Assembly: GCA_004299485.1 (NCBI GenBank) | Contig: SCQP01000018.1 | Coordinates: 124,001 to 188,000 of the forward strand | Source: Acidobacteriota bacterium | GTDB lineage: Bacteria > Acidobacteriota > Terriglobia > Terriglobales > SCQP01 | DNA: 64,000 nt | Direction: 5' to 3' | Shown: positions 39,265-44,813 of the stretch, in pieces | Numbering within the stretch: the first letter of the stretch is position 1 | Layout of the letters: each line of letters begins with the position of its first letter | The notes under the pieces: model-generated | Databases searched by the model: none | What the model was told of the DNA's origin: nothing | Seen by the model: only the letters and a program-made list of their open reading frames with translations | Made by a program: the position numbers and the translations under genes

Positions 39265-39774
39265 TCAGGTCAGATTATCGTTCAGGTTCCCTCCGGAATC
39301 GCCATTAAAGACCTTAAACAAGGCGGCGACCAATGCCTCCTGGCCGCTCCGATAGAGCCAAAACTGGGTGTGCCGGTTCCTCCATCCGCTCACGATGGCC
39401 ATCAGCGGCTTGGGTGACCGCGCTTGCTCGGAAGTCGCGATGTTTCGAGCGACCTTCAAATCTTTCCTGCTCGGTTCGGAAGAGCCTAAAGGATGTGTGT
39501 GCCAGTCGCCGAGGTATCCCCAATAGCGCCCCGATCGCTCATACGCGAGCGCTACCTGTTTGTCGTCGAACTCGTAATCAGGTACGAAGCTGAAAAGCCG
39601 ATGGGCCGCGCGCGGGCCTGGGCGAGTTGCGGCCATCACAGCAGCGCTACCATCGTCGTTCCAGTAACCCAACAATAGACCGCCAGCTTCAAACGGACAA
39701 AATTGAGCTGCCACTTCCAACATCACTCCCTGAGCGGCGAATTCTAACCACACCGAACTCAATGGCTCCGGCAT
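39265..39774 (-). CDS. JAB/MPN JAMM-motif metalloprotease of the E2-E1 locus
   Basis: The 169-residue protein is a zinc isopeptidase-like JAB domain. A complete JAMM motif is visible: Glu29 in PFEAGGLLLG, then His92 and His94 (WHTHP), Ser102 and Asp105 in HTHPLGSSEPSRKD. In known systems (Cap3 of CBASS, BilC) such proteins remove a modifier or process its C terminus. Its first codons overlap the end of the E2-E1 gene by 16 bp, so the two are coupled. The base composition is lower in GC than the flanks. Confidence 0.9.
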   Translation of the reverse strand: MPEPLSSVWLEFAAQGVMLEVAAQFCPFEAGGLLLGYWNDDGSAAVMAATRPGPRAAHRLFSFVPDYEFDDKQVALAYERSGRYWGYLGDWHTHPLGSSEPSRKDLKVARNIATSEQARSPKPLMAIVSGWRNRHTQFWLYRSGQEALVAALFKVFNGDSGGNLNDNLT

Positions 39775-41462
39775 TCAGGATGCCTTTCGAGGGAGCCAAC
39801 AGTCCAGGATGGCGCGCAGAGCGCGCCTTTTGGCGTTCGCAGCGTGAGCGTGCCGACATCCCAGTTGGTGGCAGGATAGCCGCCGGGACAATTCTCTAGA
39901 AGCGTGGAAACGGCCAAGCGTATGCCCGCTAGGGATACCTCCTGCACGTCGAAGGCTGCTGCGGTAAAGGTTGGCAAATTGCAGCCTTGTGGCTGGATAA
40001 GTGTCATTGGTGGGGCCTCGGGAAGAGTCGGGAGCAAACCATCGTCCTCATTCTTCAAGAAACACCACCAGCAACCCAGGGTCGCGTTGGGGCGAATCCT
40101 CACGAGCCGACCTCCCCAACCGCCATGAGTTGAGTAGGCACAAATGTAGGGCAGAGAACGTGCACGAGCCATTGCTGATACGAGCATGTGCAAACCTGGA
40201 TCAGCGGTCGCATCGAAAACCAGGTCAATGCCATCTAACAATCGCGTTTCCGTCGCGAGGTCCAGGCCGCCCATTGATACAGCGGAGCCCACGCGCGTCT
40301 CGCTGACGGTTACCTTCGTTCGCGGGAAGTTCTCGCGAAGAAAGGCGTTTAGCGCCCAACCCTTCGCTTCGCCCGAATGCACAACCCCAAGCGGCCAACG
40401 GACGACCGTGCCCGGCTCGATGAAATCGGGTTCCACCAGGCGGAGGTCGCCGATTCCGGCTTTGGCCAGCTCGATAGCCACTGGGGCGCCCACGCACCCG
40501 AGTCCGATGATGGCGACCGCTTTGCCTTCAAGTGAAGAAAGTTCCGGTATGCGGAGGAGCATGTCTTGGTTGCCGGCGCGGCCGGCTCTGGCGAAATACG
40601 TCGCAGGCAGTGCCTTTCCATCTCGAAAACCGTTCCGCCGTACAGGGTGTTCGACGACAAAAAGCCATCCGTCCCCAGATGATTCTCGCTGTTTGATTTC
40701 TTCAGGAAAAATAATCCCTGTGATTAGCGGCGCGCTGCTTGGCCTCCCCAGCGGCCGTGGACTCATTTGCTGGCGTACCATCTCAAGAAAACGCGTGGCC
40801 TGAAATTCGAGGATCGGCGCAGCAACGCGTGACCAATCGCCAGAAAAAGTCGCGGCGTTGTATAGATCTCGCAAAGCAGGGTCGGCAACGGCGACGATTT
40901 GGCCCGAAGGATCTCGAAGTTCGAGCACGGCCGCGCTAATCGTCTTTTCGGTGAGGTACCGACAACCGACTAGCATCGTACCCGAGCTGCAAGTGGACAG
41001 ATTCCAGGATGAATCGACCAGCACAATTGAACTGGGCGCGTACGGATAATAAGCACTGACGGGCTCCGCCTGTTCGGCCTCTTGGCCTGCGGCCGCAGAT
41101 TTATCCTTGCTAATGCCTAGCTCCAATACACGCGGTAGGCGGTCACGAAGGCATTCGGCAAGGTAATCTTCCGGTCCCCAGCTCCCGGTGTTCGCGAACA
41201 GGCAGAGGTTCTTTGCGAATGGGTTCTGATGATGTTCCAGCGCGAGACTCTTCGCGAAAAGCTCGAAGCGAGTGTGCGGGTAGGTTGGTGGGAATTCCGC
41301 AACCATCTCGACAGACTGTTCCTGTGCCGTCAATGACAGCGCCATCGTCAGCACACCTCTTCTGGCGTCCTGCTCTTGAACTGTGAACTCAATCCCAGCA
41401 TCCCTGAGCGCATCGAGTTCGAACTTGAGGCGCTCAGGAATGCGCTCCCACCAGGGCTTCAC
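39759..41462 (-). CDS. E2-E1 fusion protein (UBC-like plus ThiF/E1 adenylation domain)
   Basis: The 567-residue protein begins with an E2/UBC-like domain (about 1-115). Cys87 in NPFAKNLCLF is followed by GSWGPEDY, the bacterial E2 pattern. A middle region (about 135-305) is unassigned. The C-terminal E1 domain has the Rossmann loop VAIIGLGCVGAPVAIELAKA (about 315), IEPGTVVRWPLG, DLVFDATADP, CWWC at 464-467 and GCNLPTFT (Cys494, candidate catalytic Cys). The order E2 then E1 followed by JAB is that of CBASS Cap2/Cap3. Its GTG start overlaps the stop of the 42-residue gene. Confidence 0.88.
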   Translation of the reverse strand: MKPWWERIPERLKFELDALRDAGIEFTVQEQDARRGVLTMALSLTAQEQSVEMVAEFPPTYPHTRFELFAKSLALEHHQNPFAKNLCLFANTGSWGPEDYLAECLRDRLPRVLELGISKDKSAAAGQEAEQAEPVSAYYPYAPSSIVLVDSSWNLSTCSSGTMLVGCRYLTEKTISAAVLELRDPSGQIVAVADPALRDLYNAATFSGDWSRVAAPILEFQATRFLEMVRQQMSPRPLGRPSSAPLITGIIFPEEIKQRESSGDGWLFVVEHPVRRNGFRDGKALPATYFARAGRAGNQDMLLRIPELSSLEGKAVAIIGLGCVGAPVAIELAKAGIGDLRLVEPDFIEPGTVVRWPLGVVHSGEAKGWALNAFLRENFPRTKVTVSETRVGSAVSMGGLDLATETRLLDGIDLVFDATADPGLHMLVSAMARARSLPYICAYSTHGGWGGRLVRIRPNATLGCWWCFLKNEDDGLLPTLPEAPPMTLIQPQGCNLPTFTAAAFDVQEVSLAGIRLAVSTLLENCPGGYPATNWDVGTLTLRTPKGALCAPSWTVGSLERHPECRSH

Positions 41463-41587
41463 CCCACCTCCCTGTGATGAGGAGGTCGCGGCGGATTTGG
41501 CGGCCCCGGCGGATGGCCCGGCTTGGGTGGGTGTTCATGTTGAGGAGACGATTCCGGCTCCCGCGGCTTCTGGTCTGGTTTCGACAT
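41459..41587 (-). CDS. 42-residue Pro/His-rich peptide ending in glycine
   Basis: The frame starts MSKPDQKPREPESSPQHEHP, continues as a Pro-Pro-rich stretch and ends HHREVG. A ribosome-binding site (AGGAG) lies 8 bases before the ATG. Its TGA overlaps the GTG of the E2-E1 gene (GTGA), so the genes are probably translationally coupled. It has no beta-grasp length and no hydrophobic core. The terminal Gly is what an E1 would need for adenylation. A modifier or a substrate tail is a hypothesis. Confidence 0.6.
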   Translation of the reverse strand: MSKPDQKPREPESSPQHEHPPKPGHPPGPPNPPRPPHHREVG

Positions 41588-41612
41588 TTAATCTCCTAGG
41601 AATCAGGTTTGT

Positions 41613-41798
41613 TTAGGCCGAAAGGAAATCCTCGATCCCATGGCTCAGCAAATGCTCCGCCAGGGTCCGGCATCCACGGTCGCAGTTGGGGGTTGATAGC
41701 AATATGCAAGCGGCGCCGACCCAAAGCAACGCCGCAAGCCAGCCCGAGTTCTTCGGTGTTGTCACGCTCAATTCCCTCCGTTCCGATTTTCCGTGCAT
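41613..41798 (-). CDS. 61-residue small protein with one membrane helix
   Basis: One frame reads MHGKSERRELSVTTPKNSG, a hydrophobic WLAALLWVGAACILLSTPN and a C-terminal NCDRGCRTLAEHLLSHGIED. Third codon positions are richer in GC in this frame than in an overlapping alternative frame (41596-41805), so I favour it. It ends 25 bp before the 42-residue gene. No clear ribosome-binding site is seen. It would be a membrane-anchored component with a Cys pair. I do not recognise it. Confidence 0.45.
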   Translation of the reverse strand: MHGKSERRELSVTTPKNSGWLAALLWVGAACILLSTPNCDRGCRTLAEHLLSHGIEDFLSA

Positions 41799-41906: not shown

Positions 41907-42287
41907 ATGACGCTTTTGCGCCTCGGGGCAGCGCTCCGTGATAGAAGGGGCACGCGCGGCGTTCGCGAGCTTGCGGCGGAAATTGGAATCAGTCCGGCTA
42001 CGCTATCGCGCGTTGAAGGGGGCAAGCTTCCTGACCTGGTCACTTTCCGGAAAATTTGTGTCTGGCTGAAAATCGATCCGGCACAAATCCTAGGCCTTCC
42101 CGGTGCTCAGGAGGGGTCAACCGAGCCCTCAATTCCGGACTCGATGACGGTAGCCGTTCACCTTCGGGCAGATGCGCAACTGTCCCAAGAAGCCGCCGGC
42201 GATTTGGCCGCGCTAATTCTTGCCGCCCAAAGAGAACTGGCTGGCAGAGTACGGGATGGGCGTGCCGATGTTCCGTCGTGGGTTTAA
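41907..42287 (+). CDS. XRE-family helix-turn-helix regulator
   Basis: The N-terminal HTH is VRELAAEIGISPATLSRVEG, with LVTFRKICVWLKIDPAQILG completing the five-helix domain. The C-terminal half is unassigned. A good ribosome-binding site (AGGAGGG) precedes the ATG. The downstream ImmA-like gene overlaps its 3' end by 32 bp. XRE/ImmA pairs typically control mobile elements or defence systems, with the protease cleaving the repressor. Confidence 0.9.
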   Translation: MTLLRLGAALRDRRGTRGVRELAAEIGISPATLSRVEGGKLPDLVTFRKICVWLKIDPAQILGLPGAQEGSTEPSIPDSMTVAVHLRADAQLSQEAAGDLAALILAAQRELAGRVRDGRADVPSWV

Positions 42288-42837
42288 GACGTGGTCGGAG
42301 GAGACCGCAGCTCATGTTAGACAAGCGCTCCAGATTGCAATGGACGCGCCTCTGGAGCCACTGCGTATGGCCGAGTATTTAAGTGTTCCGGTTCTACGGC
42401 CTCTGGATCTTTCGGGACTTGCGCCGGAGGTTATCGGCCGCCTGTCGGCCTCGCACCGCGAAGCGTGGTCGGCGATTACGGTAGCCAATGGCCGGCACAA
42501 GCTCATCGTCATTAATCCGGCGCATTCGCAGGCACGTCAAAATAGCAGCCTCGCCCATGAGCTTGCGCACATAATTCTTGACCATGAGCCCTCGTTGATG
42601 TTCATGGCGCCCGGGAGCGGCGCTGTGTTGAGGACGCACAACAAGGAGCAAGAGGACGAAGCGGGATGGCTTGCAGGGACTCTGCTGCTCCCAAGAGCGG
42701 CGCTTCTTAAGATCAGACGCAGGCGGCTCACGAACGAGGAGGCTTGCACCGAATACTTCGTCAGCGCAGCCATGCTCCGGTTCCGACTCAACGCAACCGG
42801 TGTCAATGTGCAAATCAGGCGTGCCGGTCGGATTTGA
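42256..42837 (+). CDS. ImmA/IrrE-family zinc metallopeptidase
   Basis: The catalytic motif SSLAHELAHIILDH supplies the HExxH-type zinc site, followed by EDEAGWLAGTLLLPRAAL, the conserved third-ligand region, and the EACTEYFVSAAMLRFRLNATG helix pair. The ATG at 42256 (MGVPMFRRGFKTWSE) is favoured over one at 42220. In ImmA-ImmR type switches the protease removes the HTH repressor. Here the target is likely the upstream XRE protein. Confidence 0.92.
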   Translation: MGVPMFRRGFKTWSEETAAHVRQALQIAMDAPLEPLRMAEYLSVPVLRPLDLSGLAPEVIGRLSASHREAWSAITVANGRHKLIVINPAHSQARQNSSLAHELAHIILDHEPSLMFMAPGSGAVLRTHNKEQEDEAGWLAGTLLLPRAALLKIRRRRLTNEEACTEYFVSAAMLRFRLNATGVNVQIRRAGRI

Positions 42838-43236: not shown

Positions 43237-44187
43237 TTAATCACGCTCAGAACTTGGCTGAATTTCACGCAAGTCGAGCAATAGAAAAGTCTCAATCGTT
43301 CGCCCCGGCTTTTTGGTCTCGCGCTTCCGTAAGACCGCCTGCCAACGCCGCCCGACGAGCTGCTCCTGATGTATGCGTTCGAGATATGTTTCACTGAAAA
43401 TCTCCGCAACTTTTCCGGAGATGAGTTCGCCTCCGGGATACGTCCTGAACTCAAACCGACGCCCGTACGGTACTACCCCTATCAGTTCTCCCTCGACCGG
43501 AATGTCGTCCTCTGCAATCTCGGTGGCTTCGACTCTACTGTATGCCCTTTCGATTGCAGCTTGATCAAACGGCATCTCTCGCTCGTCCTCGACAAGCCGG
43601 AATACTGCATGCTCACTGCGAATCTCCTTAAAGAAGTCCCTCAGGGACGAAAATATCCGTGGATTTATCTCTTCAACCAGAGCGCTGAACGGACGATCGT
43701 CTTCGGCCGCGACTTGCTCCATGTAATCGGTTACCTTGCTGATTGTTTGCTTTAGCGGCGTTGGGAAGAGCGGTTCACCTCGCTCGTCAAGTTCCTCCAA
43801 CAAGAACCCGACCGATCCGTGGACAAGGTTCGTGATGTGGAGTCGTGTGGCATCGCGATCCTTAATCTGTCCTCGCAATGCCAAGGCGCCACACTGGAGA
43901 GTTGCCCCGACTTTCGACACAAGATCCTGATAAGTGGATACAATGGAAGAAGCGAAATCGGCCTGAATTCCGCGGCTGCCGATGACGGGGCCACCCCCAA
44001 AGTATAGTGCGACTGCGGCTCGCCGTTCCTCCATAGTGTCGAGTTCGGCTAATCTGCCTCGTAGCTCTTGGACTCGCGAGCTAAATCCTAGCAGGCCTAC
44101 GGGATCATTTGCCGGAAGTGAACCGAGGATCGCTTCAACCGACGCGATCTCAGCAACGAGCTGGTCCCGCTCGATTTTGCGAATCAT
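43237..44187 (-). CDS. Unrecognised 316-residue protein paired with a DUF6932-like nucleotidyltransferase
   Basis: The start MIRKIERDQLVAEIASVE overlaps the upstream gene stop (ATGA). The protein opens with a probable coiled coil (about 1-55), then a helix-rich body with FASSIVSTYQDLVSKVGATL and LVHGSVGFLLEELDERGE, and ends in a beta-rich domain (GELIGVVPYGRRFEFRTYPG, then TIETFLLLDLREIQ). No membrane helix or catalytic motif stands out. The tight coupling to the nucleotidyltransferase suggests a two-protein module. Confidence 0.7.
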   Translation of the reverse strand: MIRKIERDQLVAEIASVEAILGSLPANDPVGLLGFSSRVQELRGRLAELDTMEERRAAVALYFGGGPVIGSRGIQADFASSIVSTYQDLVSKVGATLQCGALALRGQIKDRDATRLHITNLVHGSVGFLLEELDERGEPLFPTPLKQTISKVTDYMEQVAAEDDRPFSALVEEINPRIFSSLRDFFKEIRSEHAVFRLVEDEREMPFDQAAIERAYSRVEATEIAEDDIPVEGELIGVVPYGRRFEFRTYPGGELISGKVAEIFSETYLERIHQEQLVGRRWQAVLRKRETKKPGRTIETFLLLDLREIQPSSERD

Positions 44188-44798
44188 GGCTGTATCCCCG
44201 GCATAAGCAGTGCGGCTGCGGCATGGTCCGCTGCCGTGATTGCAAGTGGCACCTCTAACATGCCCTTCCATTCGCCCGTCACCCTCCTGTGTGAAAAGAG
44301 GCCATACCAGTAGCGAGTCTGAGCAACCAGCGTTAGTGGATCGATGTCCAGATCCACGAAGTAGGAATCGCAGTGATAATTTTGTTTATTCGATAAAGGA
44401 TGGAACAAGGTCGAGTTCGAGGCGAAGAACTCGGCCCATAATGGGTCGGAACGCAAATGCGGTGGGCGCCGGAAGAAGGTCACAACGTCGAGATCGTTCG
44501 GATTACGGCTTTCCCGAACTTCAATCAACTCTGTAAAGCTGCCATCTAGCCACTGGAACCCGTCATTCAGACCTGCCTTTTGTAAGGCCAGCCTGAACTG
44601 AAGGAATCCTCGAAAGATCTCGGATCGCTTCGCGGTGTGCGACAGTGCTCTGGCTACGACCTCGACCGAAGTAGGATATGGTGCCAAGGATTGCGGCTGC
44701 GCGGGATTGGTGCCGCAGTATGGCGGGAGTAACCCGGCCAGTGTGAATGCTGGCAAGGCCGTGAAGAGCACTGAAGGGGTGTAAGTTGGAGTACCCAT
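44184..44798 (-). CDS. DUF6932-like nucleotidyltransferase-fold protein
   Basis: The N-terminal ALPAFTLAGLLPPYCGTNP and the active-site-like FQWLDGSFTELIEVRESRNP followed by NDLDVVTFF fit the DUF6932 group. These have a polymerase-beta-type GS motif and DxD (NDLDVV). MGTPTYTPSV is a likely start; another ATG lies five codons upstream. Related proteins are found near toxin-antitoxin and phage-defence genes. The nucleotide product or target is unknown. The composition differs from the housekeeping flanks. Confidence 0.72.
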   Translation of the reverse strand: MGTPTYTPSVLFTALPAFTLAGLLPPYCGTNPAQPQSLAPYPTSVEVVARALSHTAKRSEIFRGFLQFRLALQKAGLNDGFQWLDGSFTELIEVRESRNPNDLDVVTFFRRPPHLRSDPLWAEFFASNSTLFHPLSNKQNYHCDSYFVDLDIDPLTLVAQTRYWYGLFSHRRVTGEWKGMLEVPLAITAADHAAAALLMPGIQP

Positions 44799-44813
44799 CG
44801 GGCCGAAAAACAA

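Follow-up and report, generated by a model that had tools for sequence, protein, structure and literature searches.

A proline-rich peptide ending in Val-Gly as a proposed modifier of a bacterial E1-E2-JAB system

The E1-E2 systems known to date act on a folded protein of the beta-grasp type or, in the case of CBASS, on an entire nucleotidyltransferase as modifier. In the latter case, the C-terminal Gly of the cyclase is bound by Cap2 as a thioester and the cyclase is then joined to lysines (PMC10097602). More generally, the CD-NTase is conjugated by Cap2 through a C-terminal Gly or Ala (PMC10097602; PMC11153139), and Cap3 removes the conjugated CD-NTase (PMC11153139). A 2025 review regards Cap2 as the only known system that activates a non-beta-grasp protein (the CD-NTase), and expects further systems that are hidden by their non-canonical substrates (PMC12355090). 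In the Bil system, BilA is trimmed to expose a Gly (PMC11354881). Operons of E2-E1 and JAB genes were listed by Iyer et al. in 2006 (rows 6b and 6c) from plasmid NGR234a and the actinobacterial 'Asp.', and the assigned partner was a pol-beta nucleotidyltransferase in row 6b and a metal-binding protein in row 6c; a peptide is not mentioned there (PMC1779556). Here we consider a locus of this kind in which a 42-residue, predicted disordered peptide very probably takes the place of the modifier.

Layout of the locus and its enzymes

The window, by which we mean the whole 64,000-nucleotide stretch of DNA analyzed here, carries three minus-strand genes in a row, with overlaps of a few bases each, that encode a 42-aa peptide, a 567-aa protein and a 169-aa protein:

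41459..41587 (stop included), minus strand: proline-rich 42-aa peptide, the proposed modifier, with C-terminal R-E-V-G (ORF; homologues with conserved V-G)
41593..41597, minus strand: Shine-Dalgarno AGGAG of the peptide gene, 5 nt before the ATG (sequence)
41467..41471, minus strand: Shine-Dalgarno GGAGG of the E2-E1 gene, within the R-E-V-G codons of the peptide (sequence)
39759..41462, minus strand: 567-aa E2-E1 fusion with a GTG start that overlaps the peptide stop (Pfam Prok-E2_B 6.9e-07, ThiF 5.3e-15)
41202..41204, minus strand: codon of the E2 active-site Cys87 (NPFAKNLCLF), invariant together with His78 (alignments)
39981..39983, minus strand: codon of the putative E1 catalytic Cys494 (PQGCNLPTFT), invariant (alignments)
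39265..39774, minus strand: 169-aa JAB/JAMM protease with E29, HTHP 92-95, S102 and D105 (Pfam Prok-JAB 2.5e-12)

The peptide ORF has 126 nt of coding sequence followed by TGA, and translation of window 41587-41459 on the minus strand gives MSKPDQKPREPESSPQHEHPPKPGHPPGPPNPPRPPHHREVG, of which 36% is Pro. The stop codon (TGA, 41461-41459) and the E2-E1 start (GTG, 41462-41460) overlap as GTGA, and the codons for REVG (AGG GAG GTG GGG) double as the Shine-Dalgarno of the E2-E1 gene. The initial annotation had described a good ribosome-binding site, the GTGA overlap and a terminal Gly; all three are borne out by the AGGAG 5 nt before the ATG, the overlap at 41462-41459 and an ORF that ends ...HHREVG. 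It had also proposed that the peptide has no globular fold. The AlphaFold model is an extended chain with no secondary structure (mean pLDDT 79, pTM 0.23), a result that decides neither for nor against disorder. Pfam, NCBIfam and PADLOC gave no match to the 42-aa peptide, so neither the model nor Pfam indicates a beta-grasp fold. Just upstream of the peptide gene lies a possible 50-aa ORF (window 41613-41765), which has a GGAGG, starts with GTG and encodes a hydrophobic stretch of membrane type; no homologue of it was found at related loci.

The E2-E1 fusion was modelled with a pLDDT of 83.6, and its closest relative by both profile and Foldseek comparison is Cap2 of Enterobacter cloacae (7to3). 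In VIA-align 2, Cap2 is not among the 50 matches listed, a list that is probably filled by the E1 domain alone; Foldseek does list it. Across 26 aligned E2-E1 sequences, His78 and Cys87 of the E2 part are invariant, as are the GxGxxG motif (G320/G322/G325), D346, R355, K367 and Cys494 of the E1 part, and there is hardly any variation at the zinc-type cysteines C464, C467 and C564. The JAB gene adjoins the E2-E1 gene in 56/56 loci (all where the contig allows), and the JAMM residues E..HxHP..S..D are conserved in an alignment of related JABs (L089 not counted). Judged by these residues, both enzymes look active. The locus holds the features of an E1-E2-JAB conjugation system, namely an E1 adenylation domain and Cys, an E2 Cys, a JAMM protease, and a C-terminal Gly that a protease could expose.

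In profile and structure comparisons, the E1 part also shows similarity to ThiF and MoeB and to MccB and PaaA, and E1-like enzymes that act on short peptides are known. The peptide could thus be the precursor of a small secreted product (a RiPP), with the E1-like domain adenylating its C-terminus (as MccB does on the MccA heptapeptide) or making a thiocarboxylate carrier. However, an E2 with conserved His and Cys is fused to this E1, the JAB is always there, the closest solved relative is Cap2, and no recurring transporter, immunity or sulfurtransferase gene was seen at the loci inspected. We consider a RiPP precursor very unlikely.

Conservation of the peptide and its Val-Gly end

Relatives were gathered by E2-E1 similarity only, and the peptide was not used. 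In genome contigs, an alignment-based scan found relatives where a single-sequence scan gave none; a search of viral contigs and phage records gave no relative either. At 57 loci, a short Pro-rich ORF lies immediately upstream of the E2-E1 gene. Its C-terminus is exactly Val-Gly in 52/57, and Val-Gly plus one or two residues (QQ, Q, QG or R) in the other five. The 57 loci reduce to 28 sequences at <0.8 similarity. The peptide exceeds chance expectation: with family peptides excluded, VG is the C-terminus of about 0.45% of the ORFs at these loci (50/11,180). Hosts belong to the Bacteroidota, Pseudomonadota, Actinomycetota, Chloroflexota, Planctomycetota, KSB1 and the window's own phylum, and at least six phyla have such a peptide, its Val-Gly terminal or nearly terminal, upstream of related enzymes. 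The initial annotation had suggested a Gly-ending modifier or conjugation target and a search for the peptide and its terminal Gly upstream of related E2-E1 genes; both are kept there, a pattern that supports a role of this general kind.

All ten plasmid relatives, with E2-E1 identities of 28-35%, have a Pro-rich short ORF directly upstream. Nine of these peptides end R-P/Q-V-G and the one from Hymenobacter ends RPVGQQ. A profile scan with one genome per species gave 45 loci, and the peptide was present again. It ends KHRPVG in a relative from the window's own phylum (L089), PRPVG in a second Chloroflexota copy that has the GTGA overlap as in the window (L108), KDRPVG at an actinobacterial locus (L112), KHVG in a second NGR234a copy (L117) and RVVG in a decayed second Bradyrhizobium copy (L110).

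Four exceptions were found, all damaged or unterminated. In L080 and L083 the peptide is absent and the E2-E1 is truncated, with the E2 part gone too. Bradyrhizobium valentinum (L086) has a one-base frameshift within the peptide, and in a Chloroflexi locus (L044) the peptide reads KDREVG with no stop after REVG; the frameshift and the missing stop are either damage or assembly errors.

Existing gene tables omit the peptide in 9/10 of the plasmid loci (L041:3052-3201 and other plasmid records). For Sphingobium, the ThiF start chosen in the annotation reads through the peptide in a different frame.

Selection acts on the protein and not on the DNA. Among peptide pairs with 60-99% protein identity, pN is below pS in 544/546, and dN/dS in the closest pairs is about 0.01-0.09, with one at 0.28. 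The Val codons across relatives include GTA, GTC, GTG and GTT, and all four Gly codons are used. Because these codons vary freely, the Shine-Dalgarno does not explain the conservation of Val-Gly, and we rejected it, along with any other DNA signal, as the cause of REVG.

Across relatives, the peptides consist of 37.5% Pro, 13% Gly and 0.7% FWYILC, with no Cys. Given this low complexity, homology between distant peptides is hard to prove beyond the C-terminal motif and the position. For detection by mass spectrometry, the initial annotation had proposed isopeptide-linked REVG remnants. This has to be corrected, as trypsin would leave EVG on lysine (+285.1325 Da, computed); most relatives end RPVG, and the R-P bond resists trypsin.

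Sister systems and a proposed mechanism

No such peptide was found at ten control E2-E1 loci (CBASS/6A; mostly CBASS, with one MBL system), where gene 1 encodes an enzyme and several of the cyclases end GFA. In a tree, a branch supported at 98/98 separates all VG-peptide E2-E1s from the control E2-E1s. When sister loci are included, these form a clade with 100/100 support, and the VG-peptide clade has 91/91. At the three sister loci, gene 1 encodes a CD-NTase (SMODS) or an MBL-fold protein, with E2-E1 and JAB genes directly downstream and a C-terminus made of a Pro-rich stretch plus RYG, WYG or RYAG:

L113:3092-4054: tailed gene-1 protein, CD-NTase
L114:543-1487: tailed gene-1 protein, CD-NTase
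L115:3092-4150: tailed gene-1 protein, MBL

Since gene 1 of the sister clade has a Pro-rich tail that ends in Gly, the peptide looks like a conjugation tail of this sort that stands by itself. The L115 case points to conjugation of MBL enzymes as well. In Hymenobacter (L047:1602-2087), two DUF1508 (YegP-like) repeats are fused to a Pro-rich tail that ends GDRPVG, in the modifier position. We read these arrangements as one scheme, in which a Pro-rich, Gly-ended tail would be the conjugation handle and the head would be exchangeable, and usually absent in the VG-peptide family. From midpoint rooting and the three sister loci, we infer that an ancestral head domain may have been lost.

The same tails bear on another possible role, that of a regulatory leader (upstream ORF) for the E2-E1 gene. 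Polyproline stalls ribosomes, and the peptide is short, directly upstream and, in the window, translationally coupled; its conserved residues come just before the stop, and its last codons in the window hold the E2-E1 Shine-Dalgarno. Control could therefore come from polyproline stalling or from a TnaC-type arrest at V-G-stop. We think this very unlikely, as VG and the stop are separated by additional residues in five relatives, the distance from the stop to the E2-E1 start ranges from overlap to tens of bases, the tail in L047 is fused to a folded two-repeat domain, and the corresponding tail belongs to an enzyme in the sister systems. A leader would also leave the E1 without a substrate.

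If the peptide is instead part of the conjugation reaction, it could be the donor or the acceptor. In most members, the N-terminal region contains one to a few lysines, as might be expected of a target for another modifier, or the peptide could be an adaptor of the E2-E1. We favour the modifier (donor) reading over the target (acceptor) reading because the C-terminal VG is the invariant part, because two peptides (L037, L062) lack lysine altogether, and because the peptide sits at the gene-1 position of the proven donor in type II CBASS, the CD-NTase with its C-terminal Gly/Ala. In addition, no other modifier gene is common to the loci, and no CD-NTase lies near the family loci except for one remote ORF in L048. 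A role as acceptor or adaptor is, to us, very unlikely, and the least probable of these alternatives. A hidden beta-grasp modifier was also considered and rejected, as the shared genes seen at the loci, apart from the peptide, were only those of the E2-E1 and the JAB.

The best explanation, and in our opinion a very probable one, is that the peptide is a disordered, tail-only modifier that is activated by the E1-E2 fusion and both matured and removed by the JAB. In this three-gene system (peptide as modifier, E2-E1 and JAB), the adenylation domain of the E2-E1 would activate the C-terminal glycine of the peptide with ATP. The peptide would then pass as a thioester from Cys494 of the E1 to Cys87 of the E2, and on to an amine of a target protein, most likely a lysine. 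The JAB would trim precursors that have residues after the Gly (the QQ, Q, QG and R extensions), and would also take the peptide off its targets. We infer adenylation, thioesters, conjugation and trimming by analogy with Cap2 and Cap3, and Val-Gly followed by one or two extra residues is what a protease-matured modifier would be expected to show. Having no globular domain, the modifier would be a free-standing form of the disordered Pro-rich C-terminal tail of gene-1 proteins, and in the sister systems the gene-1 proteins (CD-NTases, and probably MBL enzymes) would be presented to their E2-E1 via such a tail.

Genomic setting and comparison with known systems

Upstream of the operon in the window, two probable regulatory genes are divergently encoded:

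41907..42287, plus strand: divergent XRE/HTH gene, probable regulator (Pfam HTH_31; a divergent XRE and ImmA pair is also found in L089)
42220..42837, plus strand: divergent ImmA/IrrE (Peptidase_M78) gene, probable partner of the regulator (Pfam 5.5e-17)

An ImmA homologue lies upstream in L089, L060, L062, L066, L068 and L084. At other loci, ImmA alone or an Xre-RES toxin-antitoxin pair is divergent to the operon. Occurrence is patchy: each sampled group comprised about 350-400 genomes, of which 1-3 (counting the seeds) have the system. Plasmid location, patchy occurrence and the divergent XRE-ImmA or Xre-RES neighbours suggest that the operon is mobile, possibly defensive cargo. From the family, the plasmid location and the divergent neighbours, our guess would be that the system defends its host from phage or mobile DNA.

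On three plasmids (L034, L035, L041), the operon is surrounded by genes for resistance to copper, cadmium or other heavy metals. Elsewhere in the window (43237-44813), a DUF6932 protein (nucleotidyltransferase-like) overlaps a 344-aa protein with no Pfam match; this pair was not found near related loci.

The operon type has been partly known since 2006. Compared with the survey of Iyer et al., the NGR234a loci (L038, L117) and the Arthrobacter plasmid (L035) are found here to carry the peptide. We found no description of a proline-rich or disordered E1-E2 modifier in the open-access literature searched, and as far as that literature shows, the modifier itself is new. If the proposal is true, a disordered peptide of 42 residues would be a minimal modifier, and the tail by itself could suffice to be activated and transferred. 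Systems with a CD-NTase, an MBL protein or a peptide would then be united by a Pro-rich Gly tail as the conjugation handle, with an exchangeable head.

Among known systems, type II CBASS Cap2-Cap3 shares with this locus the gene order (modifier, E2-E1, JAB) and the E2-wing-E1 architecture. It also shares with the proposed system a modifier that is not a beta-grasp protein and is linked via a C-terminal Gly/Ala, and a JAB isopeptidase. In contrast to CBASS, the proposed modifier here is a free 42-aa, predicted disordered peptide with V-G, and the VG-peptide E2-E1s form a separate clade outside CBASS Cap2 (the 98/98 branch). No CBASS effector was found nearby at the locus. The window's genome contains no CD-NTase (SMODS), and we therefore rejected a CBASS whose cyclase lies elsewhere in it.

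The tailed sister systems (L113, L114, L115) have the nearest E2-E1 clade, a gene-1 product with a Pro-rich, Gly-terminated end, and a JAB gene after the E2-E1. Their tail, however, sits on an enzyme and ends RYG, WYG or RYAG rather than VG. Bil (BilABCD) and Bub likewise combine a bacterial E1, an E2 and a modifier-processing protease, but BilA contains folded ubiquitin-like domains, and each enzyme has a gene of its own. In the Foldseek comparison of the E2-E1 model, Bub structures are ranked behind Cap2.

Pup, which among disordered modifiers is the best known, ends GGE/GGQ and is ligated through its Glu by PafA, a glutamine-synthetase-like ligase. It is, like the proposed modifier, small and intrinsically disordered (PMC5286830). 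The present locus differs from Pup in its E1-E2-JAB set and in its terminus, which is REVG (RPVG, KHVG and similar in relatives) and not GGE/GGQ. No PafA-type Pup ligase (PF03136) was found in the window's genome, while a Corynebacterium control gave a match. We suggest that the system is probably a hitherto unrecognised, widespread but patchy E1-E2 counterpart of Pup, in which a short, disordered, Pro-rich Val-Gly tail, originating from a modifier that also bore an enzyme, serves as the modifier.
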